Below the pieces are notes generated by a model. That model saw only the letters and a program-made list of their open reading frames with translations, had not been told where the DNA came from and did not search any database. Below, piece by piece: positions 9,218 through 28,696 of a stretch of DNA of 64,000 nt (its first letter is position 1; each line of letters starts with the position of its first letter). Origin of the DNA: Methylobacter tundripaludum (GTDB lineage: Bacteria > Pseudomonadota > Gammaproteobacteria > Methylococcales > Methylomonadaceae). The stretch lies in contig NZ_PTIY01000001.1 of the NCBI RefSeq assembly GCF_002934365.1, positions 248,001-312,000 of the forward strand, given 5' to 3'. Position numbers and translations under genes: made by a program.

Positions 9218-10138
9218 CTAATCAACACTCTGATTGCGTTCCCCGCGGCTAACCCGGTATTCCAGAAATTCCTGCAAAAAATCCATAAAGCCCCTGACCT
9301 TTGCCGACAAATACTTTCGATGGGGATATATGGCATGGACATCCAGAGGCGGCGAGGTGTAATTTTCCAGAACAGCTTTCAGTTTGCCCTTTTCAATGTC
9401 CCTGCCCACGATATAAGTCGGCAACATCACCAAGCCCAAGCCGTTAATTGCGGCGATGCGTATCGGGTCTGCGACATTCGCCTGCATCCGGCCTGAAACC
9501 GTTATCCCCGTATAACCGGCTTCGCCTTTGAACAGCCATTTATTCCTCGGCGCGATAGCCCAGTTGACCAGGCAGCTGTGATCCTCCAAATCTTCCGGCG
9601 TCTGGGGAACGCCGTATTTCTCAAAATATTCCGGCGAACCGCAAACAACCAACGACGAACTGGCTAATTTCCGTGCAAACATGCTGGTATCATCCAAAGC
9701 GCCCAAAGAAATAGCGACATCGATCCCCTCGTCAATCAAATCCCCCGGACTGCTCTGTAAAATCATCTCGACGGTCAAGTCAGGATGTATCTTCAAAAAT
9801 TCAGCTACGGCCCAAGCGATATGCGTCGCCCCGATCACCGGCGGCGCACTGACTCTTAAAATCCCCCTGGGCTCGGTCTGCAAATGCGTGACAGCGGCCT
9901 CCATCTCCTCAACCTCTAGCAACACTTGCTGGCATCGCTCCAAATAGGACGCGCCCACGTCGGTCAGGCTTAAGCTGCGCGTGGTTCGGTTGAATAATCG
10001 CGTACCCAGTACACCCTCAAGATGCATGATATGTTTGGTCGCCATGGCTCTTGAAATATCCAGATCGCGCGCGCCGCCGGCAAAACTTCCGGCCTTTGCC
10101 ACGCGGACGAAAACGTTCATGCTGGTCAATTTATCCAT
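9218..10138 (-). CDS. LysR family transcriptional regulator
   Basis: A 306-residue LysR-type regulator. The winged helix-turn-helix is at residues 1-60 (MNVFVRVAKAGSFAGGARDL, then GTRLFNRTTRSLSLTDVG). The C-terminal periplasmic-binding-fold effector domain follows, with LRVSAPPVIGATHIAWAV. It resembles the PecT/DsdC-like CrgA subgroup. Its start overlaps the end of the WbpM-type gene by 8 bases, so it may be transcribed from the glycan operon, but the target genes cannot be told. Confidence 0.92.
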   Translation of the reverse strand: MDKLTSMNVFVRVAKAGSFAGGARDLDISRAMATKHIMHLEGVLGTRLFNRTTRSLSLTDVGASYLERCQQVLLEVEEMEAAVTHLQTEPRGILRVSAPPVIGATHIAWAVAEFLKIHPDLTVEMILQSSPGDLIDEGIDVAISLGALDDTSMFARKLASSSLVVCGSPEYFEKYGVPQTPEDLEDHSCLVNWAIAPRNKWLFKGEAGYTGITVSGRMQANVADPIRIAAINGLGLVMLPTYIVGRDIEKGKLKAVLENYTSPPLDVHAIYPHRKYLSAKVRGFMDFLQEFLEYRVSRGERNQSVD

Positions 10139-12092
10139 TCACAATCCGCCTGTCTTCTTTCCACAACAAGTCTTCGATTTCACATTGCGGTACAAAACCG
10201 GTAACTGCGTCGGCCAAAACAGCCCTAACCCGTTCAAAGTCATCATCTTGTGTTGCCTGCTCCAATACCGCCAACATTTTCTCCAGTTCGGTCCACGGAA
10301 TCACCTGCTCCTGCGCGCGCATAATTCTTTCGTGCCCGGTTTTTGAAACGTTATCGCCAATCAAAAGTTCTTCATACAGCTTTTCTCCAGGCCTTAAGCC
10401 TGTATAGCTAATCTCTATGTCGCCGCCCGGATGCTCTGCATCTTTGATTTCCAATCCGCTCAAATGAATCATTCTCTTGGCTAAATCAACAATACGGATA
10501 GGTTCGCCCATATCCAGCACAAACACATCGCCGCCCTGACCCATTGCACCGGCCTGAATGACCAGCTGCGCCGCCTCTGGTATGGTCATAAAATAGCGGA
10601 TGATTCTCTCGTCGGTCACCGTTACCGGCCCGCCTCTTGCGATCTGTTCCTTAAACAACGGCACCACGGACCCTGAAGATCCCAATACATTGCCGAAGCG
10701 CACCATCGTAAAACGGGTTTTTGTATTATTAGCCTGATTAAAGCTGAGCGCCTGCAAAATCAATTCAGCGAAGCGCTTGGTCGCTCCCATCGTATTGGTT
10801 GGCCTGACCGCTTTATCCGTTGAAATAAGCACAAAAGTCTCAACCTCCGTCTTTATCGCGGCCGTTGCCGCATGCAAGGTGCCAAATATATTGTTCCAGA
10901 CCGCTTCGCCCGGATTTCTTTCGACCATCGGCACATGCTTGTAAGCCGCCGCGTGATAGATCGTCCGCACCTTGAAAGTCTTGCATATTTTTTCGCAGCG
11001 CTTAGCGTTTACCACCGAACCCAATACAGGAATCAGTTTTATTTCTTTATCGTTCTTGGCTTTGGTTAATAAATGCTGCAACTCTTTTTCTATCGCATAA
11101 AGCGCAAATTCACTGATTTCAAAAAGAATCAACGACTCCGGCTGCAACAGAATGATTTGCCGGCAAAGCTCGGAACCGATAGAGCCGCCTGCGCCGGTCA
11201 CCATTACGACCTTGCCTGCGATATTGGCATGCAGCAGCGATTGATCGGGGGCCACAGCGTCGCGTCCCAGAAGGTCGGCAATATCAACCTCCTGTAGCGC
11301 ATCAACGGTGACCTTGCCTTGGGCAATCTCGGACAAACCCGGCATCGACATCACATGAACCGCAAAAGGCTCCAGCAAGCGAATAATTTCACTTTTACGC
11401 GCCCGATTAGCTGAAGGCATAGCCAGCAGAACGTCTGAAACCTGATATTTTTCTATCAAGTACCGCAAAGAGCTGAGCGGATAAATCCGGAGACCGTTGA
11501 CCTTTTGTTTATGCAGCAACTCGTCGTCATCGATGAACGCGACCGGCCTGAATTCACGTCCATAGCCTAATGCGGAAGCCAACTGTACGCCGGCGTTTCC
11601 CGCGCCGTAAATCACTACATTTTTTTTGCTGTGATTTTTTGCACCTCGGCCTACACCCAGGTTTAAATAAACCTCACCCAACCACCAACGCGCAAAAAAA
11701 CGGCTTCCGCCCACCAGCAGCATCATATTCAACCAGTTGAGCGGTAACACCGTCCGGGGGACGCCTTTGATGCCGGACTCGTACAATACAAACGCAAAAA
11801 ACAACGCATAAAGCGTAGTCGCCTGAATTATGGTCCATAACGCCCTGACCTCTATGTAACGGATAATCGCACGGTACAAGCCCAACTTGACAAAAATCGG
11901 TACGGCTATCACCGGGGCCGCAGCAAATAGATACCACTCATCGTCTTTAGGAATGTACAGCTCTCCCCAACGCAAAGAAAAGGCCGCCCAAAGAGCAAAC
12001 ATCGCAAAAAAAACATCGGCGCTAATCAAAATAAATGCCTTCTTCTGACGCGCAAGACCAATGAACCAGTTCGCTAATCGTGACCTCATCAA
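10131..12092 (-). CDS. Membrane-bound nucleotide-sugar 4,6-dehydratase/epimerase (WbpM/CapD family)
   Basis: A 653-residue protein. The N-terminus has four transmembrane helices within about residues 15-130, followed by a first Rossmann region (VIYGAGNAGVQLA). The SDR domain starts near residue 300 with VTGAGGSIGSE. The catalytic region STDKAVRPTNTMGATKR shows the serine-methionine-lysine arrangement (Met where most SDRs have Tyr) typical of WbpM-type UDP-GlcNAc 4,6-dehydratases. It would supply a 4-keto-6-deoxy HexNAc (towards QuiNAc or FucNAc) for the first sugar loaded by the WbpL-type transferase encoded just upstream. Confidence 0.9.
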   Translation of the reverse strand: MMRSRLANWFIGLARQKKAFILISADVFFAMFALWAAFSLRWGELYIPKDDEWYLFAAAPVIAVPIFVKLGLYRAIIRYIEVRALWTIIQATTLYALFFAFVLYESGIKGVPRTVLPLNWLNMMLLVGGSRFFARWWLGEVYLNLGVGRGAKNHSKKNVVIYGAGNAGVQLASALGYGREFRPVAFIDDDELLHKQKVNGLRIYPLSSLRYLIEKYQVSDVLLAMPSANRARKSEIIRLLEPFAVHVMSMPGLSEIAQGKVTVDALQEVDIADLLGRDAVAPDQSLLHANIAGKVVMVTGAGGSIGSELCRQIILLQPESLILFEISEFALYAIEKELQHLLTKAKNDKEIKLIPVLGSVVNAKRCEKICKTFKVRTIYHAAAYKHVPMVERNPGEAVWNNIFGTLHAATAAIKTEVETFVLISTDKAVRPTNTMGATKRFAELILQALSFNQANNTKTRFTMVRFGNVLGSSGSVVPLFKEQIARGGPVTVTDERIIRYFMTIPEAAQLVIQAGAMGQGGDVFVLDMGEPIRIVDLAKRMIHLSGLEIKDAEHPGGDIEISYTGLRPGEKLYEELLIGDNVSKTGHERIMRAQEQVIPWTELEKMLAVLEQATQDDDFERVRAVLADAVTGFVPQCEIEDLLWKEDRRIVNG

Positions 12093-12157: not shown

Positions 12158-13192
12158 TCACTCGGCATCCCTGGCTTGAGCCAGCCGATCACCGGCCTTG
12201 TAACGATATGCCAACAACAATAACGGCAAATACGCCACCATGAGTCCAACAATACCGTCTAACTTTTCCAATGCAACCAAACCCGCAACAGGCATCAACC
12301 AAAAAACATTAATAGCGCCTATTGCCAGGGTGACTGGTTGATGGGCGCCTATGATGCGGGATGCATATTGATAGGCATGGCTATGGTGCGCCTCATAAAA
12401 CTTCTCGCCCCGCAATACGCGACGACACAAGGTAACGGTTGCATCGACAATGAATACACCCAACAAGATCAGCCACACCCATAATAACCCAGGTTCAATC
12501 CTTGCCGCTTGCACCGAAAGCAGCGCCAATATGATACCCAAAAAACCGCTCCCTACATCTCCCATAAAAATACGGGCGGGAGGGAAATTCCAAACAAGAA
12601 ATCCCAACACTGCTGAAGCCAGAAGAACCGGCAACATCCAAGCGGTTGAATCGGGCGCAACAAGCCACACCATCAAAGCCCCCCCGCAACAAACCGTAAT
12701 CGCCTCAATACCGGCAAGGCCATCAATGCCATCCATGAAGTTGTACAAATTGAGCAACCAGACTACATACACGGCCGCAAACGCGTACCCAAACCATCCC
12801 AAATCCAGCGAATACCCAAAGGCTGAGACAGGAGGAAAGCCACCCAGCCAATAAAGCCCCCAAGCCGCCGCTCCGAAATGTACCAATAAGCGCCAGCGTG
12901 CGGCAATATGTCCATGATCATCCAAAAAGCCGGTTACCGCAACAGCGCATCCGGCGCCCCATAAGGCCAAGCATACAGGGTTCGCCAGCAGATCAAATCT
13001 ATTGAGGAGGGGGAGAGCCGCCAAAAACGCTGTCACAATGGCGACACCGCCGCCACGAGGCGTTGGTGTCGAGTGCGAACTGCGTTCATTAGGAACATCG
13101 ATTAAGTTCCTCGCCAACGCGTACCTGCGCAAAAAGCCGGTAAGCCCCCAAGACACGGCACTCGTTAGCAAAAGAAACCACAAAAAAATCAT
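12158..13192 (-). CDS. Undecaprenyl-phosphate sugar-1-phosphate transferase (WecA/WbpL family)
   Basis: A 344-residue polytopic protein with about ten hydrophobic segments and family motifs: DVPNERSSHSTPTPRGGG near the N-terminus, LYNFMDGIDG (catalytic aspartates) and ARIFMGDVGSGFLG. It transfers a HexNAc- or FucNAc-type sugar phosphate to undecaprenyl phosphate at the inner membrane and so starts the glycan. Paired with a WbpM-type dehydratase and a nucleotide-sugar reductase, as in Pseudomonas O-antigen loci, it most resembles WbpL. Confidence 0.92.
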   Translation of the reverse strand: MIFLWFLLLTSAVSWGLTGFLRRYALARNLIDVPNERSSHSTPTPRGGGVAIVTAFLAALPLLNRFDLLANPVCLALWGAGCAVAVTGFLDDHGHIAARWRLLVHFGAAAWGLYWLGGFPPVSAFGYSLDLGWFGYAFAAVYVVWLLNLYNFMDGIDGLAGIEAITVCCGGALMVWLVAPDSTAWMLPVLLASAVLGFLVWNFPPARIFMGDVGSGFLGIILALLSVQAARIEPGLLWVWLILLGVFIVDATVTLCRRVLRGEKFYEAHHSHAYQYASRIIGAHQPVTLAIGAINVFWLMPVAGLVALEKLDGIVGLMVAYLPLLLLAYRYKAGDRLAQARDAE

Positions 13193-15760: not shown

Positions 15761-16600
15761 TCAAGAGGCGCTGTTAATCAAAAAACGCCATTTTACAATA
15801 CTCCACCTTCGGAAGTATTTTAAAAACGAAAAACTCGAAACCAGTATAAACATGAAAAATGGAATAAACCCGGCACTAAAAATTTTTTGATAAGTATCCA
15901 ATATGCCTTGTTGCGCTCTCCACAGGTTGCCCGTTAATCCCCCATCCCCAAACTCTTCTTTGAATGAATAAGCCATTGGACTATTCAAAAACCAGGCTGG
16001 TTGACCATTAAATACAAGGGTGAGCCAAAGCAAGTAATCTTCTGCATAGCGCTTTTCAGGGAAAAACCGGAAAGAGACTTCCCGTTTTAACATGACTGAA
16101 CGTGTAGGAAGGCAATTGGAGAACAGCAATCTACATTCATTGATCCGGCGAGCCAGCAAGCTTTCTGGTAATTCCGGCAATGCAACGCCTTCCGATATTT
16201 TGATGCTCGGATGACCCGACAATACGACATCCGGGTGCGCCGCCATCCATTGATATTGAATCGCCATTTTTTCCGGATGCCAGCTGTCGTCCGCATCCAG
16301 GAATGCAATATAGGGTTGTGATGACTGCTCCCATCCTGCGTTACGCGCACTACCGGGCCCACCGTTCTTATTGAGTCGCAAGACTTTTATGTTCGTTTCT
16401 TGATGCTCCTGCCGAAGCCGATCCAGAACGGCCAGCGTTTCTCCCCCGTCATTGCTGAAGTCATCAATCAATATGATCTCTTCCGGGGGGCGTGTTTGAG
16501 CGATCACTGAATCAACCGCACGCTGGATAGTATCCGCACAACGATAACACGGAATAATCACGCTTACAGGCGTATGCACTGAGTCATACCGATCACTCAT
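15761..16600 (-). CDS. Glycosyltransferase family 2
   Basis: A 279-residue GT-A fold transferase: VSVIIPCYRCADTIQRAVDS at the start, EIILIDDFSNDGG, and the metal-binding AFLDADDSWHPEKM (DxD). The C-terminus has a hydrophobic, probably membrane-touching segment (FIPFFMFILVSSFSFL). I start at the ATG at 16598-16600, which overlaps the GT11 stop as ATGA; an in-frame ATG 12 bases earlier is less likely. Donor and acceptor are unknown. Confidence 0.9.
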   Translation of the reverse strand: MSDRYDSVHTPVSVIIPCYRCADTIQRAVDSVIAQTRPPEEIILIDDFSNDGGETLAVLDRLRQEHQETNIKVLRLNKNGGPGSARNAGWEQSSQPYIAFLDADDSWHPEKMAIQYQWMAAHPDVVLSGHPSIKISEGVALPELPESLLARRINECRLLFSNCLPTRSVMLKREVSFRFFPEKRYAEDYLLWLTLVFNGQPAWFLNSPMAYSFKEEFGDGGLTGNLWRAQQGILDTYQKIFSAGFIPFFMFILVSSFSFLKYFRRWSIVKWRFLINSAS

Positions 16601-17481
16601 AGCCGAATCCATTCATTAGGCATCAAATCGCGATCATCATTCCCATTGCAAAACCAGCTTCCGGGCGCGACAACCAATTTCTCTGGGCTAGGATTTAACC
16701 ACGCACCCCACCAGCTAAACGTGCTATTTGCGATAACATGATGCTTGCATAAGCTCATCAGCTGCATATCTCTGTAACTTTCCGCTTGACGATTATGATC
16801 GACATAAATACAAGGAAATTCCACGGTTAAATTTTGCCTTACCCACTCCATATCATCAGAAAAGACATAAAACACCGGTCGTTCAACGCGCTCGGCAATA
16901 TAACCGATCGCCTTATGATAATAGTCTGACGAGCATACTTCCATGATTTTTCCGGTTTTGGAATCGCTGACATAATCCCCACGACGGACGTGTAAACTGA
17001 TTGACTGGGTATTTGCAATTTCCAATGCCAGCTCAGAATTTCGCCCAGCCAATGGCTCCCGAAAAGTAAAATCCCGGCGAATAACACTTTCAAATGGTTT
17101 GAAGTAACGTTCCGATTGCCAGTAGCCAAACAAATAACAATCATCGTTCAAATTAAAGAAATCGGACCAATAATTAAAATGGGGCTCAACCACAAACTTC
17201 TTGCCCCTGAGTCCTGCAAACTGAGGGCGCCGCAGCACTTTCTTGACCAAGCGATTTGCTCTCCACCCTAATAGCTGACGCACAGTCGACACCTCTGCCC
17301 TTTCCGCAATCACATTGAACACCCGGCTCAATTCAAAACCATGATGCAAGCGGTAATCCGAAAAATCGCCCAAGTCGAGAAGAAGCTTCTGGCTATTCGC
17401 AAGCGAAAGCGCACGTCCGGCAGCATACTGGAACATCTGGTTACCGATACCCCCAAGAATATGACTAACTACCATATGCAC
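16597..17481 (-). CDS. Alpha-1,2-fucosyltransferase (GT11)
   Basis: A 294-residue protein with the GT11 signatures: GGIGNQMFQYAAGRAL near the N-terminus, the GDP-fucose-binding SLHVRRGDYV, and NSTFSWWGAWLN near the C-terminus. These enzymes transfer L-fucose from GDP-L-fucose in alpha-1,2 linkage. The GDP-fucose genes of this cluster appear deleted (see the scar at 28466-28696), so donor supply must come from elsewhere if the enzyme is active. Confidence 0.93.
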   Translation of the reverse strand: MHMVVSHILGGIGNQMFQYAAGRALSLANSQKLLLDLGDFSDYRLHHGFELSRVFNVIAERAEVSTVRQLLGWRANRLVKKVLRRPQFAGLRGKKFVVEPHFNYWSDFFNLNDDCYLFGYWQSERYFKPFESVIRRDFTFREPLAGRNSELALEIANTQSISLHVRRGDYVSDSKTGKIMEVCSSDYYHKAIGYIAERVERPVFYVFSDDMEWVRQNLTVEFPCIYVDHNRQAESYRDMQLMSLCKHHVIANSTFSWWGAWLNPSPEKLVVAPGSWFCNGNDDRDLMPNEWIRL

Positions 17482-18270: not shown

Positions 18271-19185
18271 TTATCGTCTCTGAAAAACATACTTAATACA
18301 CCAAGCTCCGACTATTCTTACAGCATCAGCAAATCTAAATTTATCGTCCCGCAGAAGGGTTGCCATCAAAGATAAATTCCCCTTTTTGACTGAGTGGAAA
18401 AGCCGTTTAAGATTCCTAGCCGTATGCTGCCTTACCAATAAATCACGCAGTTTAATTCTCTCTGCATCATTCATGCACGTTCTTGACCAATAAAATTCTT
18501 CGAGCCGGTTCATTAGATCATATGGAAAGTGGCTTGAATCCTGACCAGCATGCACCCGACACTCGTATAGCGGCGTAACTTGATACGCAATAGATCCAAT
18601 TTCCGCCAAATCACAAAAATATACGGCGTCAAAAACCTTGCCAAATTCTTCTCTGAATTTAACTGAACGGACTGCGTGACTGCGATATATCGCTGGGGAG
18701 AGGGGTATACATGAATTTCCTGCATATTTCAAAGCCACATGCCCACTACATGTGTACAACTCAATAGGTTCACCACCGACGGTGGGCACAAGAGTTTCTC
18801 CGGTCTTATTACCAGCTTCATCTATAAAATATCCATTACATGAAACAGCCAAAAGACTATCGTTAGCCTCCAATAAGCCGATTTGAGTCTCAAGAAAATT
18901 GGAGCACAACCTATCATCATCGTGAAGCAACACAACATATTTGGAGTCGTTGCTAAGCATGGCTCTGCTGAAATTCCAGATAAATGGATGGTTATTCTCG
19001 GCCTCAACCCATTGGACCTCACTTCCTATAAACTCTTCTATACTTGCATACACATCCTTATTACTACCATTGTCGTAGATGACAATTTTCTTAGGTTGTT
19101 TAGTCTGTGAAAGAACGGAATGCAACGATTCACGCAAATATGCGGGACGGTTGTAGGACATGATGCATACAGTAACGTCTAGCAT
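18271..19185 (-). CDS. Glycosyltransferase family 2
   Basis: A 304-residue GT-A enzyme: DVTVCIMSYNRPAYLRESLH at the N-terminus, KIVIYDNGSN, and the metal-binding VVLLHDDDRL. The start overlaps the GT10 gene's stop by 7 bases, which implies coupled translation. The specificity is unknown. The gene is AT-rich. Confidence 0.9.
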   Translation of the reverse strand: MLDVTVCIMSYNRPAYLRESLHSVLSQTKQPKKIVIYDNGSNKDVYASIEEFIGSEVQWVEAENNHPFIWNFSRAMLSNDSKYVVLLHDDDRLCSNFLETQIGLLEANDSLLAVSCNGYFIDEAGNKTGETLVPTVGGEPIELYTCSGHVALKYAGNSCIPLSPAIYRSHAVRSVKFREEFGKVFDAVYFCDLAEIGSIAYQVTPLYECRVHAGQDSSHFPYDLMNRLEEFYWSRTCMNDAERIKLRDLLVRQHTARNLKRLFHSVKKGNLSLMATLLRDDKFRFADAVRIVGAWCIKYVFQRR

Positions 19186-20297
19186 GTCTTAGCCAACCTA
19201 ATTACGTTTCTCGCAAAGCCTTCATAGGAGTGAAGCATCCCGGCTTCTGTTCTCAAATAATCCCGCCCCGCTCTAATCATTCTTATGGCATCATGCTCAT
19301 TCGCTGAGTTCATATAATTATCAACTTGATTGTAAGAATTAAAATTTCGCATATCAACAAATGACTCTACTGGAACAAGTGTTTCAATATCCGGGGCACC
19401 TAAATATAATGGGACGGTTCCAGCGACAAAGCAATCAACCATTTTTTCAGTCATATATCCCGGCAATACCATATTCTCAAAGCAAATTGAGAAGCGGTAG
19501 CCACTTATTGTTTCCAGCTTGTTTTCGCATCGCCCCAGATACTGGTCTTTGACAGCATCTCTAAGCCTATTGCCCCATACCATCGGCAGCTCATCCAAAT
19601 CTCCCCAGCCTGCACCGTACAAATCCAGCTCTTTTTTACTTGCAAAGTACTCAATTGCTTCAAAACGTCGATCATGAAGCGATGCGGCTAATGATTTACG
19701 ATACGCCGGAGAAATAAATTGCCAGCTCGCCGATTTAACTTGCCGTAATACATTGATCAGGCTCAGCCGACCAGGAATAAATAAATTTTTAGCTCTGTAT
19801 TTATTCGCGGCAACAAGTACCAGCTTTTTCCTATCCTTCCATGAACGAACCTCTTGCATATCATCGAAATAAAAAGAAGGGAATCTAAATTGAAGCCTTG
19901 TCTTTTCTCCTATAGCGCCGCCTTGTCCATTTAGAAAACCGAATCCCAAATTAAACTTAAATCTATCGGCAATTTGAACAACGCTGTCGTAAAAAAACGG
20001 CGCGTAGAGTGGCGCTTCAAAACAAGTAATTAAGAATGGCATAGCTCCCAAATCGAGCAATTTAGCTGCGTCTGTCGACGTCATGTCCTGTATTACATAC
20101 ACATCTTTCGCATTCCATTTTTTTGAAGCAATATTTGCAAGCGCAACATCACCTGATGCTACATTTATCCCAGATTCTGCAGCCATACGATACAAGCATG
20201 TTATCCAGCCAGAACCAGGGAAACGGTAACTCCATTGCTTATCGCGCAATTGATCTTTATTAAATTCTTCGATATCGCTACAGAACGCAAAATGCAT
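19179..20297 (-). CDS. GT10-type (alpha-1,3/4) fucosyltransferase-like protein
   Basis: A 372-residue protein. The C-terminal half carries the GT10 donor-binding signature FSICFENMVLPGYMTEKMVD followed by AGTVPLYLGAPDIETLVP and SFVDMRNF, as in bacterial alpha-1,3-fucosyltransferases. The N-terminal acceptor half (FPGSGWITCLYRMAAESG) is divergent from the Helicobacter enzymes. It would use GDP-L-fucose. Together with the GT11 gene this implies a glycan with more than one fucose. Confidence 0.82.
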   Translation of the reverse strand: MHFAFCSDIEEFNKDQLRDKQWSYRFPGSGWITCLYRMAAESGINVASGDVALANIASKKWNAKDVYVIQDMTSTDAAKLLDLGAMPFLITCFEAPLYAPFFYDSVVQIADRFKFNLGFGFLNGQGGAIGEKTRLQFRFPSFYFDDMQEVRSWKDRKKLVLVAANKYRAKNLFIPGRLSLINVLRQVKSASWQFISPAYRKSLAASLHDRRFEAIEYFASKKELDLYGAGWGDLDELPMVWGNRLRDAVKDQYLGRCENKLETISGYRFSICFENMVLPGYMTEKMVDCFVAGTVPLYLGAPDIETLVPVESFVDMRNFNSYNQVDNYMNSANEHDAIRMIRAGRDYLRTEAGMLHSYEGFARNVIRLAKTC

Positions 20298-20313: not shown

Positions 20314-21762
20314 TCAGTTATGAGAGATCACTGCTTCTCTCCGCAACACAGGAAGTAGCATTGAATATTGAAACAACAAAAATAATAAGCCAATAACGCA
20401 CAACCGTATAAACGCAAATAAATGACTTCCGTCATAGTCCAGTAATTGACTTAAAATTTTTGCCATCACAAATAGCACCGCTCCCATGATTGCACTTTTC
20501 ACAAATAGCTTCAGAGGCAAGACTACAGACAGGTGATTTTTGGTTATGTAGATAGTTAATAGCAAAGTGACCATCGATGAAAATGCAAGGCCAAATCCAA
20601 TGCCATGTGAACCATAAACTGGAGTCAGATACCAGATTAATAAGATTGACATCGCTGCTCCCACTAAGTTCGGAAGAAGCAATAGCTTTGTATTCATTCG
20701 GGCATGAGCCGCCATGCCAAAAACAGCCGTTGAAATCCTTGCCAGTTCAGCCAATGCGCCCCATACAACAAACTGAGTTGACAGTTTGAAGTCACTCCCC
20801 AGTAAGAGCTGGGTTAATTCCGGTGCCGTTGCCATTATAAGAATACTCGTCAATAGTAAGGAAGGTAGAATAGATTGAGAGTACTCGATCCAAGCATGAT
20901 ATTGCTCGTTGATATTATCATTGCTTATTCGCTTATAAAATTTCGGCTGAAAATAAGTTGTAAAAATAGATTCAAATCCAGCAATTAAACCAGCACTTAT
21001 TCCATAGCCAGCAACAAATAATCCAAGTTCAATCAATCCCAGACGTTCTTCCATCAGGTAACGATAACCTTGACTTTGAATCCATCCTAGCCCAACGGCA
21101 ATTGCAACTGGCCAAGCGAATCCAAGAAAACTCTGGATGTGTGAATGTGACAACTTTGGGAGTCTGTTACTTTTCGGGTTCGCACGCTGTAATTTTCCAA
21201 AGAAGATTCTTTTTCCAATCAGTCCGACAATTAATTGGCCGATCAGTAATCCACTTAGCCAATTTTCAGCGTTTGGCGAAACCTCTCGAACAAGCACAAC
21301 AGCAAAAATCAAGCTCGTCGCAGTGGTGGCGACTGCCAGAACAGAAAACCAACCTCTGTGACCGAGCAGATTCAATCCTGGAATTACAACTTGGTTAATC
21401 GTGCCAAAAATTAGGTTTCCGCAAACCAATAGTAACAGCCAATAAATGTTAATGCTCGGGCTCCAAATGTTAAATCCGGTTAAAGCGAACAATACTAGGG
21501 CTGAAAATACATTGACTATTAGAAGATAGCGCCAAAAATACATTAAATAATTTGTCGCTTGCCCTCTCAAATCCCAAGCATGTAATCGGCGATTCATAAA
21601 CATGCCAACAGGATTGAGTAGCAACAACGCAAAAAAGGCCACTGTCGCTGTAACGATAGAAATCTTACCCATTTCTGCAGGCGACAACAAACTTGTTGCA
21701 AGCCGAAGCGTTAGCAACAAGAGCGCGAACTGAGCAATCCGTCCAATCGCAATTAATAGCAT
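20314..21762 (-). CDS. wzx: Wzx-type polysaccharide flippase
   Basis: A 482-residue integral membrane protein with about 12-14 hydrophobic segments, of the MATE/polysaccharide-transport (Wzx, RfbX) superfamily. It begins ATSLLSPAEMGKISIVTATV and repeats the usual two six-helix bundles. It flips the undecaprenyl-linked glycan unit across the inner membrane. No Wzy polymerase or Wzz regulator is visible in the cluster. Confidence 0.88.
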   Translation of the reverse strand: MLLIAIGRIAQFALLLLTLRLATSLLSPAEMGKISIVTATVAFFALLLLNPVGMFMNRRLHAWDLRGQATNYLMYFWRYLLIVNVFSALVLFALTGFNIWSPSINIYWLLLLVCGNLIFGTINQVVIPGLNLLGHRGWFSVLAVATTATSLIFAVVLVREVSPNAENWLSGLLIGQLIVGLIGKRIFFGKLQRANPKSNRLPKLSHSHIQSFLGFAWPVAIAVGLGWIQSQGYRYLMEERLGLIELGLFVAGYGISAGLIAGFESIFTTYFQPKFYKRISNDNINEQYHAWIEYSQSILPSLLLTSILIMATAPELTQLLLGSDFKLSTQFVVWGALAELARISTAVFGMAAHARMNTKLLLLPNLVGAAMSILLIWYLTPVYGSHGIGFGLAFSSMVTLLLTIYITKNHLSVVLPLKLFVKSAIMGAVLFVMAKILSQLLDYDGSHLFAFIRLCVIGLLFLLFQYSMLLPVLRREAVISHN

Positions 21763-21786: not shown

Positions 21787-22515
21787 TCAGGTTGTTTTTC
21801 GCTTTAAGAAACGAGGAACAAAAGGTTTAATTTTTTGTTTCATTACATACATGGATATTGGAACTTCTGTAGCAATACAATTCCACAGTGTAACTAGTGG
21901 ATCGTCCTTTTTTGCATACCAATCGTTACACCCTGTTTTTTTAAATCTTATATATGACACAGATTGCATAAATTTTTTTACTTGGGGGTCAAGTCCATGT
22001 GAGTTGTCTTCGATAATTACTATCCTAGGAGAGTTTGTGCTGAAAGACATTCCCGCTAGCACGGACATTTCATGGCCCTCTACATCAATTGTTAGAAAAT
22101 CGATGGTTGTTATGCCTCGTTCGAGCAAAATATCATCCAAACGTGCTGTTTTTACTGTAATTTTTTCCACCTCTTGCTGACTCAAACTTCTGATTCGAGC
22201 AAAATGATTCTCATCTTTCTCTATTGTCGAAAGCGTTTCAACTCCAACGGCCACATGAAATTCAACTTCACCTAATTTATAGCTTGCCGCCATCTCAACA
22301 ACTTCACATGAACGTGCATCCCTAATTTTTTTGCAGAAAGCTGGCATCGGTTCAACAACTAAGCAACGCCATCCCAGTTTCTCGAAAAAGTAGGTATTAC
22401 TACCAGTTATGCCATCAAACCCGCCGACCTCAACACAAGTCCCCATTTTTTTGTCGAAAATCTCATTGAGAATTTTATCTTCACCAAATTGAGCATAAAA
22501 TTTTTTAGTTTCCAT
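21787..22515 (-). CDS. FkbM family methyltransferase
   Basis: A 242-residue SAM-dependent methyltransferase. The FkbM pattern is visible: CVEVGGFDGITGSNTYFFE (motif I), VVEPMPAFCKKI, and TIDFLTIDVEGHEMSVLAG. I start at METKKFYAQFGED because an AAGGA sequence lies five bases before that ATG; the frame extends 26 codons further upstream without a good site. It probably O-methylates a sugar of the glycan. Confidence 0.88.
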   Translation of the reverse strand: METKKFYAQFGEDKILNEIFDKKMGTCVEVGGFDGITGSNTYFFEKLGWRCLVVEPMPAFCKKIRDARSCEVVEMAASYKLGEVEFHVAVGVETLSTIEKDENHFARIRSLSQQEVEKITVKTARLDDILLERGITTIDFLTIDVEGHEMSVLAGMSFSTNSPRIVIIEDNSHGLDPQVKKFMQSVSYIRFKKTGCNDWYAKKDDPLVTLWNCIATEVPISMYVMKQKIKPFVPRFLKRKTT

Positions 22516-22600
22516 CGCCATCCTTAATTTGTAATTACACGACCACTTATTCTGCATGTGACCAAAATCATTGATTGAATCACCATAAATCACTCGAACA

Positions 22601-23554
22601 TCAACAAATGTTTATCCTGCTTGATCTAGATTGTTGCAACATCGCTTCCATTTCTTGCACAATCCCCTCTAGGGAAGTCAAGGATGGTATATATCCAAAG
22701 TCCGCGGCACGGGTATTCAATGAGTAGTAATGAGGCTTGCTACCCGTTGCATTAACGCCGGCAGTTGCGTCGGTTATTTCATACTGCAGACCAAATTCTT
22801 TTTGCATATTTGCTAATAGCTCAGGCTTACTAATTGGTGCTCGACTATAGCAATCGACAACAGCGTTGACGGCCGGTGTAGAAAGAAGCGCGCTGACCAG
22901 TTTATAGAAATCCGATGGGTGCAGGAAGTCACGCACGATATAGTCGGATGAAGCCTTCAGCACTATTCCATCGCGAACAGCGCGCAAAATATCCGTGATT
23001 AGAAAGCGTGCGGAAATATCCTGTGTGCGACTGAAATAATTGAACACCCGTATATCAATGATAGGTAATTCAGGATGGGCGCGATGCCTGCATTCCGCAT
23101 GCAGCTTAGCGACGCCATACCATTCCTGCGGGGCCAGATCGTTTATCGCCACAACCGCCGGCGTATTTCGGGCAGCCGGCTCGTTGAAGCTCGATCCATA
23201 TGCGGCACCACTGCTTAAAAACAAGTAGCGACATGCCGGGTGTGCCCCTAGATAATCCAGCACCAACTCATCAAAACGCAGGGTGATATCAAAGATCGAA
23301 TTGCCCAAGACCACCGTCTGCGCAGGGTTGCCGACACCAACGAAGTTAATGACGGCATCGAATTCCTGCTTGGCAAACCCGGAAAATTCATCTACCGGAT
23401 AGCGACCTGAAAGACCTACAGACATTAACCATTTTGCCGCCTCGTCGGGATGGCGCGCAAATAAGTGCAGCTGTTTGTCGTCCGCTGTGGAAAACGAAAC
23501 GATCAAGTCTCTGGCAATTTGGCTGGTCGCTCCCAGAATGGCAATTCTCATCAT
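22601..23554 (-). CDS. SDR-family nucleotide-sugar reductase (YerF-like, yersiniose-type pathway)
   Basis: A 317-residue extended SDR opening with MRIAILGATSQIARDL, a serine-rich active-site strand YLFLSSGAAYGSS and a tyrosine-lysine pair in WYGVAKLHAECR. It lies 13 bp downstream of the TPP enzyme and completes the set rfbF-rfbG-rfbH-yerE-yerF. In Yersinia pseudotuberculosis O:VI, YerF reduces the two-carbon branch of the YerE product to give CDP-yersiniose A. The role here is inferred from position and family, not from close sequence identity. Confidence 0.7.
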   Translation of the reverse strand: MMRIAILGATSQIARDLIVSFSTADDKQLHLFARHPDEAAKWLMSVGLSGRYPVDEFSGFAKQEFDAVINFVGVGNPAQTVVLGNSIFDITLRFDELVLDYLGAHPACRYLFLSSGAAYGSSFNEPAARNTPAVVAINDLAPQEWYGVAKLHAECRHRAHPELPIIDIRVFNYFSRTQDISARFLITDILRAVRDGIVLKASSDYIVRDFLHPSDFYKLVSALLSTPAVNAVVDCYSRAPISKPELLANMQKEFGLQYEITDATAGVNATGSKPHYYSLNTRAADFGYIPSLTSLEGIVQEMEAMLQQSRSSRINIC

Positions 23555-23567
23555 GCTGCCGGATCGA

Positions 23568-25277
23568 TTAGACGCTTAGCGGGGGAAACTGTTCATCCAG
23601 CTTCGAGCCAAAAGCTAAGCGTGGCCGACATTCCGTCGCGCCATCCATCATAATTTCGATCAGCAGCGGGCTTTTGCGCTCCGCTATCAGATTCAAAGCG
23701 CGCTCTGTATCCGCCGCGTTGCCGACACGATGGGCTTCAATCCCGTAGGCTGTTGCAATATCGGTGAAGGAGGGGCTGCTGTAACCTTTCTGAGTCGATT
23801 GGTTCCGGCCGTCAAAATACATATCCTGAAAATTCTTGACCATGCCCAACGCTGAATTGTTCATTACGATAATAGCCAGATCCAAGCCCAGTCTATTCAG
23901 AGTATCCAGCTCCTGGATATTGATTTGCAGGCTGCCGTCTCCGCTAATCACAACAACTTTGTTCCTGGATTGAATGGCTATCCCCAATGCTGTGGGCAAT
24001 GCAAATCCCATCGCGCCCATCCCGCCGCTGTAATGAACAGCCTGGTTAGGAGATAAACGCAAGCTTTGCGCCGCCCACATTTGATGATTGCCGACATCAC
24101 AAACGTAATCGACGGCATGCTTAGCCAAAATGCGATTTAGTTTTTTGACAACCTCACTGGGACTGATTTCCCAGTCCGCATATTCATTAAGCTGAGCCCG
24201 GTCGCGTTGTTTTGACAGCTCGGTCAACCAGTTTTTGTCCAGGCTTGAAAATACGCTTGTTTGAAGCGGAAATGCCTTGAAAAAACTGCCCGCCGTTGCA
24301 CAAATATTCAGGTCGGCCTGAACGCGATTAGCCAATTGCGACGGATCGATGTCTATCTGGACGATATGCGCATGACGAGCAAAGTCTTCCACGTCGGAAC
24401 CTGTTTGCCGAACATCGAGGCGCGCACCCACTACGATCAGCAAATCACAGTTTTGTACCGCCCAATTGGCCTCGCGATTGCCATAACTGCCGATCATGTT
24501 GAAGTAATTGTTGCCCGCGGTCACCCGCTCATGCCCCATCAGTGTAGACACATACGGGACGCCTAGAGCATCTGCCGCCAGCAGCCAATCGCTCATCGAG
24601 TCGGCCCAGCGCGCTCCACCGCCGATACAAATCAACGGCCGCTGCGCATCCTTACAAAGCGCTTCCAAGTTCTTCAGATCATTCAAACCTATTTCCGGCC
24701 CGGTGTTGATGTCCAGCGGAACATTCAGCCATTTTTCAACCAATGCATCAGGAATCCCGGCTCGTTGGACATCGTTGGGAATATCCAGCAACACCGGGCC
24801 TTGACGTCCACTCAGTGATATCGATAACGCTTTATGCAATTCCGACAGCAAATCTTCGGGGTCATCGACTCGCACTGCATATTTTGTCAATGACCGTACC
24901 ACTTCAACAATATCCAGCTCCTGAAATCCTTGCTGCCTGATGGCCTGTTCACCTTTGAGTTCACGGGTGTTGACTTGCCCCGTGACGAATAAGCAGGGTA
25001 CGGAATCGAACCAGCAACTCCCGATACCGGTTACCAGATTGGTTGCACCCGGACCGCTGGTTCCCATCGCCAGTGCGATGGTTTTCCCTTTGGTATATCT
25101 TGCCACGCCTTCCGCTGCGAACGCAGCAGATTGCTCATGGTGCATCGAAACGATGTTGAATTGCCCCGATTCGGCGAAGCTGTCTAAGAGATGGGTGATC
25201 ATGCCGCCCACGAGTTCGAAACAGGTCTGAACTCGATGGTTTATCAGAAATTTGGCGACTACGTCAGAGGCTTTCAA
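23568..25277 (-). CDS. TPP-dependent acetolactate-synthase-like enzyme (YerE-like)
   Basis: A 569-residue thiamine-diphosphate enzyme of the acetohydroxyacid-synthase fold: catalytic glutamate in HHEQSAAFAAEG (about residue 48), middle domain with PLICIGGGARWA, and the TPP/magnesium motif GDGSLQINIQELDTLNRLGL with MNNSALGM. It is embedded between rfbH and an SDR gene and has no IlvN-type small subunit nearby, so it is more likely YerE-like: decarboxylation of pyruvate and transfer of the two-carbon unit to C4 of CDP-4-keto-3,6-dideoxyglucose. A biosynthetic acetolactate synthase is the alternative. Confidence 0.78.
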   Translation of the reverse strand: MKASDVVAKFLINHRVQTCFELVGGMITHLLDSFAESGQFNIVSMHHEQSAAFAAEGVARYTKGKTIALAMGTSGPGATNLVTGIGSCWFDSVPCLFVTGQVNTRELKGEQAIRQQGFQELDIVEVVRSLTKYAVRVDDPEDLLSELHKALSISLSGRQGPVLLDIPNDVQRAGIPDALVEKWLNVPLDINTGPEIGLNDLKNLEALCKDAQRPLICIGGGARWADSMSDWLLAADALGVPYVSTLMGHERVTAGNNYFNMIGSYGNREANWAVQNCDLLIVVGARLDVRQTGSDVEDFARHAHIVQIDIDPSQLANRVQADLNICATAGSFFKAFPLQTSVFSSLDKNWLTELSKQRDRAQLNEYADWEISPSEVVKKLNRILAKHAVDYVCDVGNHQMWAAQSLRLSPNQAVHYSGGMGAMGFALPTALGIAIQSRNKVVVISGDGSLQINIQELDTLNRLGLDLAIIVMNNSALGMVKNFQDMYFDGRNQSTQKGYSSPSFTDIATAYGIEAHRVGNAADTERALNLIAERKSPLLIEIMMDGATECRPRLAFGSKLDEQFPPLSV

Positions 25278-25301
25278 TGCGAATCCTATGTTCTCGTGAT
25301 T

Positions 25302-26615
25302 TTATGAGATCACACCAAGAAACGTTTCGATTTTCTCGACCACGAACGCCAGCTTCTGTTCATTCAGGCCGGGGTAAACACCTATCCAGAAGGTATTGTT
25401 CATGATCTCATCGGTGCGAGCAAGTTCGCCGCTGACACGATAGGTTCTATCTTTGAAATAAGGCTGGCGTGTGAGGTTACCGGCAAACAAGAGGCGTGTG
25501 CCTATTTTGTATTGATCCAGATATTTCAGCAGCTCGACCCGCTCAATGCCCGCCGATTCCCTGAGGGTAATGGGAAAGCCAAACCAGGATGGCTCGCTAT
25601 CCGCAGTGGCCTCGGGAAGAATCAGCAGCGCTTCGCAGGATTTCAACCGCGCCTTAAGGAAGGCGAAATTGCGTTTGCGTGCGGCTATAAATTCCGGCAA
25701 GCGGTCCATTTGCGCTAAAGCGCAAGCGGCTTGCATGTCGCTGATGTTGAGGTTGTAGCCCAAATGCGAGTAGGTGTATTTGTGATCGTAACCTTTGGGC
25801 AAAGTTCCGAGTTGCCAGCCAAAACGTTTGCGGCAAGTATCGTCGCAGCCGGGCGCGCAGTAACAATCACGCCCCCAATCGCGGAAGGATTCGATGATTT
25901 TTTTCAGCTTGCGGTCTTTGGTAAAAACGATGCCGCCTTCGCCCATGGTGATGTGATGGGCCGGATAAAAACTGCATGTGGCGATATGGCCGAAAGTGCC
26001 GACATGCTGGCCTTTGTAAAGCGAACCCAGCGCATCGCAGCAATCTTCAATGACCCACAGGTCATGTTTTTGCGCGATAGCCATCACAGCATCCAGATCA
26101 TACGGATTACCCAAGGTGTGGGCGATCATGATCGCGCGAGTACGTTCGCTCACCGCCGCTTCGATTTTTTGAGGGTCGATGTTGTAGGTCGGAATATCGA
26201 CATCGACAAACACCGGCACCATGCCGTTCTGCAAAATCGGATTAACGGTGGTAGGAAAACCTGCCGCTACGGTAATGACTTCATCGCCCGGCTTTAACGC
26301 GCGCTCGCCCAGTTTGTACGAGGTCAGCGCGGTAAACGCGAGCAGGTTGGCCGCAGAACCTGATGTAGTCGTCAGTGCGTAAGGCACGCCGACAAACTCG
26401 GCAAAGCGCTGTTCAAATGCCTTGTTGAAACGTCCTGTGGTCAGCCAGCCATCCAGGGAGGCATCGACCATGTTTTTCAATTCGCCGGCGCCAAGCACTT
26501 TACCGGACGGTGGGATGACGCTGGAGCCGGCCTCAAATGCCTGTTCCGCGAAATGCAACTCACTGTAACGCTCAACCAGATCGAATATCTGTTGTTTCAA
26601 CTCTGCCTTGCCCAC
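25302..26615 (-). CDS. rfbH: CDP-4-keto-6-deoxyglucose 3-dehydrase (E1)
   Basis: A 437-residue PLP/PMP-fold enzyme of the DegT/DnrJ/EryC1 superfamily. Two E1 hallmarks are visible. The usual PLP lysine is replaced by histidine in [15 protein letters not shown] (His220 region). The [2Fe-2S] cysteines occur as C193, C251, C253 and C261, exactly the C-x57-C-x-C-x7-C spacing known for the Yersinia enzyme. It removes the 3-hydroxyl of CDP-4-keto-6-deoxyglucose and needs an E3 reductase (DdhD/RfbI), which is not in the window. Confidence 0.96.
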
Positions 26616-26628
26616 TTCAAATTCCCGC

Positions 26629-27708
26629 TTAATTGTTTAAATCATTGTCATATGCCCGGATCTGACGCAAGGTCAGCTCATGCATGTCTTTCCCGTCCCG
26701 GTATGCCCGATGCCAATCGATAATCGCAGCCAATGCATCTTCGAGACGCCATTTCGACCGCCAATCCAACCGGGCTTTCGCCTTGGAGCAATCCAGTTTC
26801 AGATAATGCGCCTCGTGCGGATGATCGCCCTGATCCAACACCCAGCTCGCGTCCTCACCCCAAGATTTGGTCAGGCTATCCACTATCCATTGCACGGGCT
26901 TGGAATCTTCATCGTTCGGACCGAAGTTCCAACCTTCTGCATAGGCCGCGCCCTCTTCATAAAGCTTTTGCGCCAGCAATAAATAACCGGATAACGGCTC
27001 CAGCACATGCTGCCAAGGACGGATGGCATGTGGATTGCGAATATTCACCGGTTTGCCTTGAGTGATGGCGCGCATAATGTCGGGAATAAGCCGGTCTTCC
27101 GCCCAATCGCCACCTCCGATCACATTGCCCGCTCTGGCCGAGGCTAATGCCACGCGATGATCTGTAAAATTACCGGGATTGAAATAGGAGCTTCGATAAG
27201 CGGATGCAACCAGCTCAGCACAGCCCTTGCTGTTACTGTATGGGTCGTAGCCGCCCATCGGTTCGTTTTCCCGATAACCCCATACCCATTCACGGTTCTC
27301 GTAACATTTGTCGCTGGTAACGCTGACGATTGCCCGCACGCTGCTCGTCAGTCTTGCGGCTTCCAACAAATGCACGGTACCCATTACGTTAGTGGAATAA
27401 GTTTCTATCGGATTGGCGTAGGAATAGCGCACCAAAGGCTGAGCCGCCATGTGTATGACAATCTCGGGTTGATATTTTGCAAACACGGCTGAAAGCGCCG
27501 CAAAATCGCGTATATCGGACTCGATGCTAACCATGCCTTCGGCAACATTGGCGGCATCAAATAAACTGGGATGTGTGGGCGCTGCCAGTGCGTAGCCGAT
27601 TACTCTTGCACCCATAGCTTGCAACCACAAAGAAAACCAGCTTCCTTTGAAACCGGTATGGCCGGTTAGCAGTACGACTCTATTGGCCCAGAATGATGGA
27701 CTTACCAT
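26629..27708 (-). CDS. rfbG: CDP-glucose 4,6-dehydratase
   Basis: A 359-residue extended SDR, the normal length with the start at [19 protein letters not shown]; a longer frame adds ten residues but that ATG lies deeper inside rfbF. The motifs are [15 protein letters not shown] (NAD binding), [13 protein letters not shown] and [13 protein letters not shown] with the YxxxK pair. It converts CDP-glucose to CDP-4-keto-6-deoxyglucose. The start codon overlaps the end of rfbF by 7 bases. Confidence 0.96.
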
Positions 27709-28469
27709 ATTTTCCACGGCGCCTTTCCGCCGGCCCATAACGCTTCAAGATAGTTTTTATCGCGCAAGGTATCCATAGGCTGCCAAAAACCGGAATGGAA
27801 ATGAGCAGCCATTTGTCCGTCTCTGGCAAGTTGCTCCATAGGTTCGTTCTCCCAAACCGTATGATCGTCTTTAATGTAACCGAGCACTTCTGGCGAAAGT
27901 ACAAAGAACCCGCCGTTAACCCAATTACCATCTCCCTGCGGTTTTTCCTGAAAACCGATTACACTGCTCCCGTTCAAATTAAGCGCGCCAAATCGTCCCG
28001 GCGGCTGCATTGCTGTCAAGGTAGCCAGTTTGCCATGCTGTTTATGGAATTCAATCAGCGCAGTGATATTCACATCACCAATGCCATCGCCATACGTGCA
28101 GCAAAAATCTTCGTTGCCTATGTAATCGGCAACACGCTTAATGCGGCCGCCGGTCATGGTTTCTTCGCCGGTATCGACCAATGTTACGCGCCATGGTTCA
28201 GCGTTGCGCTGATGTACTTCCATCTGGTTACTTCGCATGTCAAATGTCACATCGGACATGTGCAAAAAGTAATTGGCAAAATACTCCTTAATCACATAGC
28301 CTTTATAACCGCAACAAATGACAAAGTCATGTATACCGTGGGCTGAATAGGTTTTCATGATGTGCCAGAGTACGGGTTTGCCGCCAACATCAACCATAGG
28401 CTTAGGCCGGATTGATGTCTCTTCACTAATCCGTGTGCCTAAACCGCCGGCAAGAATAATTGCTTTCAT
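27702..28469 (-). CDS. rfbF: Glucose-1-phosphate cytidylyltransferase
   Basis: A 255-residue nucleotidyltransferase with [20 protein letters not shown] at the N-terminus, [20 protein letters not shown] and the metal-binding TYGDGIGDV. It makes CDP-glucose from CTP and glucose 1-phosphate, the entry to all CDP-3,6-dideoxyhexoses. Its ATG overlaps the stop of the small gmd/fcl scar frame as ATGA, and its end overlaps rfbG. Confidence 0.97.
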
Positions 28470-28696
28470 GCCTGATTGCCTCCGAATGCTTTGTAAGTCA
28501 GCTTAATTTCGTCTTTCAAGCTGGTGCTTGCCGCCCATTCCCGTTCACTAATTCTGGAGACATCCAATAACTTGCGCATAAACAACGATGAGCGCCGTTT
28601 GGCGTCATGCACTACATAGTCACTTTGGAGCGGGAATTCAGCCAGATAATCACCATCCTGCTCGGCAACTCCGGCAATTAATGCTGTTTTATTCAT
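28466..28696 (-). pseudogene. gmd-fcl fusion scar (remnant of GDP-fucose biosynthesis genes)
   Basis: A 76-residue frame whose first half ([20 protein letters not shown], ending KRRSSLF) is the N-terminus of GDP-mannose 4,6-dehydratase, with the second glycine of GxTGQDG changed to glutamate. The second half ([14 protein letters not shown], then [15 protein letters not shown]) is the extreme C-terminus of GDP-L-fucose synthase. In intact loci these two genes are adjacent as manC-gmd-fcl. The pattern is what one internal deletion from early gmd to late fcl leaves, with the frame kept. The product cannot be an enzyme of either kind. It still sits between manC (4 bp away) and rfbF (ATGA overlap). 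Confidence 0.82.

Follow-up and report, generated by a model that had tools for sequence, protein, structure and literature searches.

Which sugar is made by five tightly packed genes of Methylobacter tundripaludum that resemble the yersiniose genes of Yersinia, and where would its deoxygenation step obtain electrons when the reductase of such operons is missing? The window (the whole stretch of DNA that was analysed, 64,000 nucleotides) carries these genes as five intact minus-strand open reading frames between 28469 and 22601:

27702..28469, minus strand: rfbF/ddhA, glucose-1-phosphate cytidylyltransferase (TIGR02623, 470 bits; cut-off 300)
26629..27738, minus strand: rfbG/ddhB, CDP-glucose 4,6-dehydratase (TIGR02622, 521.5 bits; cut-off 278)
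25302..26615, minus strand: rfbH/ddhC (E1), PMP and [2Fe-2S] 3-dehydrase (NF011936, 754 bits; His220 and Cys193, Cys251, Cys253 and Cys261)
23568..25277, minus strand: yerE-like ThDP-dependent carboligase, with a TTG start
22601..23554, minus strand: yerF-like extended SDR, proposed to reduce the branch ketone (by identity to yerE-linked SDRs)

Our answer is that the operon quite probably yields a yersiniose-type sugar, a CDP-linked 3,6-dideoxy sugar branched at C4 and destined for an O-polysaccharide.

The five-gene sugar operon

The rfbF and rfbG genes overlap by 37 bp, and the subsequent intergenic gaps measure 13, 24, and 13 bp. RfbF, RfbG, and RfbH all score above the curated cut-offs of their NCBIfam equivalogs, and each of the five frames lies intact at the coordinates listed above, which bears out the five-gene sugar operon described in an earlier note on this DNA. 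In E1 enzymes, a histidine replaces the PLP lysine, and four cysteines in a C-X57-C-X1-C-X7-C arrangement serve the [2Fe-2S] cluster. The window RfbH has His220 in place of the lysine, and its four cysteines are spaced by 57, 1, and 7 residues. These five residues are invariant in all 69 homologues of more than 50% identity among the listed loci (L012 to L090), and the same holds for all 21 RfbH loci examined in 19 genomes of the methanotroph family, among them the window's own. By these residues, the window RfbH is predicted to be an E1 (RfbH/AscC) 3-dehydrase.

Promoter-like and terminator-like sites were dropped as evidence; the 20 promoter-like sites lay below the shuffle mean of 27.2, and the 24 terminator-like sites about equalled the 20.8 in shuffles. 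The minus-strand interval between the GMP_PMI gene and rfbF (28470-28696) holds an open frame of approximately 75 codons that resembles a deletion scar: its start is similar to Gmd (58% over 43 aa, E 1e-11) and its end to Fcl (36% over 42 aa, E 9e-5). Elsewhere in the host genome there is an intact gmd, 82% identical to the gmd of locus L012.

The ThDP enzyme is assigned to the YerE group

The window ThDP enzyme has the fold and domain architecture of biosynthetic acetolactate synthase (AHAS; IlvB/IlvG). Comparison with AHAS revealed that (i) its best solved relative was Pseudomonas protegens 5ahk, which we take to be PpYerE, with 583 bits against 271 bits for the best plant AHAS; (ii) its score against the acetolactate synthase equivalog TIGR00118, 425.7 bits, fell below the cut-off of 538.35; (iii) the residues A, P, H, D, Q, and W at plant-AHAS positions 122, 197, 352, 376, 487, and 574 were replaced by M, N, Y, V, N, and F in both the window enzyme (M26, N103, Y265, V289, N397, and F483) and PpYerE, so that Trp574, Asp376, and Pro197 of AHAS are absent, while Glu48 was kept; and (iv) the gene has no adjoining ilvN, its neighbours being rfbH and the SDR gene. 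The YerE active-site letters in (iii) were derived within this analysis from PpYerE and its clade. The window enzyme is 47–52% identical to the classic YerE clade and conserves PpYerE Val479, and its clade has letters of its own at two positions (AHAS numbering): Asn instead of Met at 256, and Asn at 573, where PpYerE has Gly and the others mostly Gly.

A contig scan confirmed 132 ThDP relatives, the best 80 of which are given as 79 loci. The tree was built from 90 ThDP proteins (the window, 84 loci, and 5 references), reduced to 83 rows by removing the short rows L029, L044, L077, and L079 and merging the duplicates L007, L008, and L009. The window clade (36 rows), the classic YerE clade (30 rows), and L047 form a 67-row group with an SH-aLRT of 100; PpYerE and the Yersinia copies fall inside this group, and the three AHAS rows fall outside as the outgroup. 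A careful tree of 37 rows, hand-picked from the 83, gave the same split between YerE and AHAS with a support of 100/99. The sister row of the window enzyme varies, being L020 in the 83-row tree and L012 in the 37-row tree. Acetolactate synthase identity is ruled out by the sub-threshold TIGR00118 score, the 5ahk score, the tree, and the active-site letters. We therefore read the enzyme, from its sequence, as YerE-like. The earlier note had proposed the YerE type, had named firm clustering with acetolactate synthases as the outcome that would speak against it, and had described the gene as lacking an IlvN partner and locked into the sugar operon; tree and active-site letters both came out on the side of YerE, and the gene order is that of Yersinia and Pseudomonas. 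The other ThDP homologue in the host genome (L002) is 32% identical to the window enzyme, scores 499 bits against solved AHAS, and is a separate IlvB; the adjacent 163-aa open reading frame was read as IlvN by eye.

The SDR resembles YerF

Within its own clade, the window SDR shares 63–81% identity with the other SDRs. Outside it, yerE-linked SDRs are 40–52% identical: 52% for L010, 43–50% for those of Pseudomonas and Comamonas, 47% for Yersinia vastinensis, 40% for Y. similis, and 46–48% for three Yersinia loci in a tblastn comparison. Residues S114, Y146, and K150 are invariant in 31 aligned rows, which include L058, whose SDR lies approximately 2 kb after yerE. The protein matches Pfam Epimerase with 58.7 bits, and neither a family in NCBIfam nor a match among PDB sequences was found. 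Its model (pLDDT 91) has an extended-SDR fold with 2pk3, a GDP-4-keto-6-deoxymannose reductase, as the top Foldseek match. Because reductases and epimerases were nearly tied in Foldseek, the fold does not prove reduction. The YerF type that had been suggested for this protein agrees with the position of a homologous SDR directly after the yerE-like gene and with the Ser-Tyr-Lys residues; the protein is a YerF homologue, and we propose that it reduces the C4-acetyl branch. This step of YerF was described as uncharacterised in 2016, in text available from PMC4753412.

Proposed pathway and length of the branch

In the proposed pathway, RfbF would make CDP-glucose, and RfbG would convert it to CDP-4-keto-6-deoxyglucose. 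RfbH would strip O-3 through PMP/[2Fe-2S] chemistry, with electrons from a reductase encoded outside the operon, since the operon has no E3. The YerE-like enzyme would decarboxylate pyruvate, as the most likely alpha-keto acid, and put a two-carbon unit on C4, and the YerF-like SDR would turn the branch ketone into a hydroxyethyl group. The product series would be CDP-4-C-acetyl- and then CDP-4-C-(1-hydroxyethyl)-3,6-dideoxyhexose, a yersiniose, which the adjoining transferases would build into a surface glycan; we infer the substrates and the stereochemistry of these steps as we do the surface location. A C4-branched 3,6-dideoxy sugar is very likely the product, and a two-carbon branch (yersiniose) is our best guess. 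Pathway and enzyme family are already known, and the variation here is an E3-less operon common to close relatives. In a literature search covering titles, abstract openings, and few subscription papers, no report of this sugar in methanotrophs was found.

We infer the two-carbon length from phylogeny and gene content, because ErwE-like relatives of YerE use longer donors; in the portions of PMC12247030 consulted, YerE-like enzymes such as ErwE take such donors, and ErwE does not use pyruvate. With a longer or hydroxylated alpha-keto acid, the window enzyme would make a branch of the erwiniose or caryophyllose type rather than yersiniose. Its 47–52% identity to the classic clade and the clade's own letters at 256 and 573 lend this reading some weight. 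Against it stand the conserved Val479, the YerF-type partner SDR, and the operon genes scanned, among which no aldolase-like, donor-making gene was named; this last result favours pyruvate as the donor. We regard the longer branch as unlikely. JanthE (8rph) and ErwE, the longer-donor YerE-like enzymes, share the superfamily and the proposed reaction type with the window enzyme. JanthE, the sole long-branch reference placed in the tree, is 28% identical to the window enzyme in a fold alignment and forms a long branch outside the YerE group. ErwE was not identified in a search of the genomes of Yersinia aleksiciae's order at E <= 1e-85: 141 of 394 genomes matched, and only that of Y. aleksiciae itself (G548) and G702 gave full-length matches near 50% identity. 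The remaining matches scored 288–323 bits, in the AHAS range by score, apart from a broken stretch in G548 (C1:3191880-3192872), a second, partial YerE-like sequence of 45% identity with two in-frame stops. Returning to the yersiniose-type reading, the next point is the electron supply of RfbH.

The missing E3 reductase

The yersiniose A operon, ddhD-ddhA-ddhB-ddhC-yerE-yerF, is found in the Yersinia pseudotuberculosis complex (O:6/O:12) and in Pseudomonas WCS417. Locus L057 comes from P. simiae, and WCS417 is a member of that species. The window has homologues of ddhA-ddhB-ddhC-yerE-yerF in the same order, with a ThDP enzyme of the sister clade that is approximately 50% identical; unlike that operon, the window cluster lacks ddhD (E3), and the host genome holds no close homologue of it. 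An operon of this kind in WCS417 carries the names ddhA-ddhD, yerE, and yerF in the accessible part of PMC4509608.

No E3 (ddhD/ascD) gene was found in the window cluster. Among the listed matches, an E3 is linked in all 27 classic loci with at least 1 kb before rfbF (five of these loci provided the queries), where the operons start with ddhD, and in 0 of 27 such window-clade loci, the basal L047 aside; L047 is the sole E3-linked locus of that clade (1 of 28). The count omits L041 and L077, which have too little sequence before rfbF, and L035 and L037, which have no upstream rfbF, and it includes L026, whose rfbF match lies after the ThDP gene. With the Y. similis E3 as the query, the best homologue in the host genome is 27% identical and scores 115.8 bits, against 238–348 bits for the 27 further E3s that are linked to such clusters. 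When 12 window-clade genomes were searched whole, 10 had an E3 homologue outside the fetched locus at 256–313 bits, in the range of true E3s; the best homologues in the methanotrophs L020 and L045 reached only 131 and 105 bits. In the host family (151 genomes), RfbH at E <= 1e-120 occurs in 19 genomes, and E3 at E <= 1e-50 in none of these 19; the single family match at that threshold, in G134 (63% complete), is not in an RfbH carrier. The lack of a close E3 is thus a methanotroph trait, and in the other tested window-clade genomes E3 is merely unlinked. The pathway had been called complete-looking and RfbF, RfbG, and RfbH credited with making CDP-4-keto-3,6-dideoxyglucose: the five genes and their identities stand, but the E3 for the RfbH step is missing, so another electron source is needed.

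If RfbH could not be reduced without E3, the pathway would be silent or incomplete and no 3,6-dideoxy sugar would form, as the absence of E3 from all 19 RfbH-bearing family genomes might suggest. We consider this very improbable, since the genes are intact, the five E1 residues are invariant in all 21 methanotroph-family loci, which argues for use, and reductases of the Fer2-FAD-NAD type are encoded elsewhere in the genome. Moreover, the lack of E3 need not stop the pathway, because SpnQ, an E1 relative, draws electrons from general ferredoxin/flavodoxin reductase pairs without an E3, according to the available text of PMC8987622. SpnQ serves a dTDP-sugar antibiotic pathway in that source and offers an analogy only: an E1-type dehydrase without a dedicated E3, which is the mode proposed for the window RfbH. 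The candidate electron suppliers are the methane monooxygenase reductase MmoC (L003; NF045803, 567 bits, cut-off 500) and two generic Fer2-FAD-NAD reductases (L004 and L005); L006 is a fourth PF00970 match in the host genome. By this analogy, methanotroph RfbH would work without a specific E3, fed by a general or C1-metabolism reductase, which may be a generic Fer2-FAD-NAD reductase or even MmoC, and the YerE-clade branch would perhaps differ from yersiniose A; we find the arguments for this combined view evenly balanced.

Synteny and distribution

Upstream rfbF, rfbG, and rfbH were counted among the listed matches with at least 4.5 kb upstream available, when they shared the strand of the ThDP gene, stood no more than 6 kb from it, and were more than 50% identical. 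All three precede the ThDP gene in every one of the 27 classic loci and in 28 of the 31 from the window clade, where L047 is counted in; of 10 loci from a more distant Legionella/Bacteroidota group, none has them. The three window-clade misses are L013, whose rfbF and rfbG matches lie approximately 7.5 and 6.5 kb away, beyond the 6-kb cut, L035, and L037. In the same listed matches, rfbH is no more than 150 bp away in all 27 classic loci and in 24 of the 38 of the window clade. An SDR of the window type follows the ThDP gene by no more than 100 bp in 24 of 35 window-clade, 21 of 28 classic, and 0 of 11 distant loci; the other 11 of the 35, each with at least 1 kb downstream, have no such SDR within that distance. 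Because this five-gene type of synteny recurs in dozens of genomes, a chance grouping is excluded. It is scarcely credible that a biosynthetic acetolactate synthase has been displaced to a site beside genes for an ordinary unbranched 3,6-dideoxyhexose, since the resemblance of the ThDP enzyme to TIGR00118 stays under the cut-off and tree, replaced Trp574 and Asp376, separate IlvB, and rfbFGH synteny all contradict it.

A different, longer extended SDR replaces the YerF-type one, following the ThDP gene in at least L012, L015, and L049 and preceding it in L038, which hints at other branch processing. Small open reading frames that look by eye like toxin-antitoxin genes (PIN-like, and paired nucleotidyltransferase/HEPN-like) lie between rfbH and the yerE-like gene in L016 (9294-9713) and L023 (8233-9862).

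The MmoC match and the genus shared with Candidatus Methylobacter oryzae support a methanotroph host, as the earlier note had supposed. It had also expected such a sugar to be notable in this setting; the rarity is less than supposed, since ThDP relatives occur in Ca. Methylobacter oryzae (L020, with an identical protein in G042), in Methylomonas methanica (L045), and in the methanotroph assemblies L046 and L037, the last with neither an rfb gene nor an SDR found beside the ThDP gene. Strain NCIMB 11130 of M. methanica (L045) has all five genes in the order of the window. The enzyme occurs in 3 of 151 genomes of the host family at E <= 1e-100 and in 4 of 398 genomes of a phylum sample, the host's own included in both counts; one of the four, L011 (38%), sits beside JanthE rather than YerE in the tree. 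The closest ThDP relative by identity among the listed matches (86%) is in a Chlorobiaceae-labelled assembly (L048), through transfer or misbinning. Two same-family genomes (L111, 25-7114, and L110) carry rfbFGH followed by another ThDP enzyme, which in L111 is JanthE-like (best PDB match 8rph, 278 bits) and has a dehydroquinate-synthase-like gene upstream (TIGR04425, 275 bits, under the cut-off); this could be another branched sugar of methanotrophs, different from the first.

Adjoining genes of a probable O-polysaccharide cluster

The cassette is followed by further genes of this probable O-polysaccharide cluster:

21787..22593, minus strand: FkbM-type methyltransferase, separated from the SDR gene by 7 bp (PF05050, 83 bits)
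20314..21762, minus strand: Wzx-like membrane protein with 11 hydrophobic segments (75% match in L040, where the gene order is the same)
19179..20297, minus strand: GT10-type glycosyltransferase (PF00852)
18271..19185, minus strand: GT2 glycosyltransferase (PF00535)
16597..17481, minus strand: GT11-type glycosyltransferase (PF01531)
12158..13192, minus strand: WecA/WbpL-like initiating sugar-phosphate transferase (PF00953)
10131..12092, minus strand: WbpM-like nucleotide-sugar dehydratase (PF02719, 414 bits)

A DUF268 gene is listed between the GT2 and GT11 genes. The Wzx-like protein has no Pfam match, and no wzy was identified in the cluster. It is possible that the FkbM-type enzyme O-methylates the unit, and the GT10 and GT11 transferases may draw on the product of the intact gmd. 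Two modules seem to make up the locus, because the G+C content is 48–53% in the sugar cassette and 38–46% in the next block, from FkbM to DUF268. In Gallionella sp. S40-4 (L040, 6837-18645), the cassette and the FkbM, Wzx, GT10, GT2, and DUF268 genes are shared with the window at 67–86%; its ThDP enzyme, 67% identical, is from another subclade, and L040 has an additional, inserted gene for a methyltransferase-like protein that looks FkbM-like by eye. A methanotroph and an iron oxidiser have this O-unit in common, with the branching enzyme apparently swapped.

These results raise the question of which reductase passes electrons to E1 when there is no E3. The window clade represents, as judged from sequence, a diverged group of likely ketone-accepting ThDP enzymes and would be a source of such enzymes for tertiary-alcohol chemistry. 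The proposed pathway would place branched-octose synthesis in methanotrophs, beyond the known cases of Yersinia, Pseudomonas, and Burkholderia, with relatives also in iron oxidisers and other freshwater Proteobacteria.
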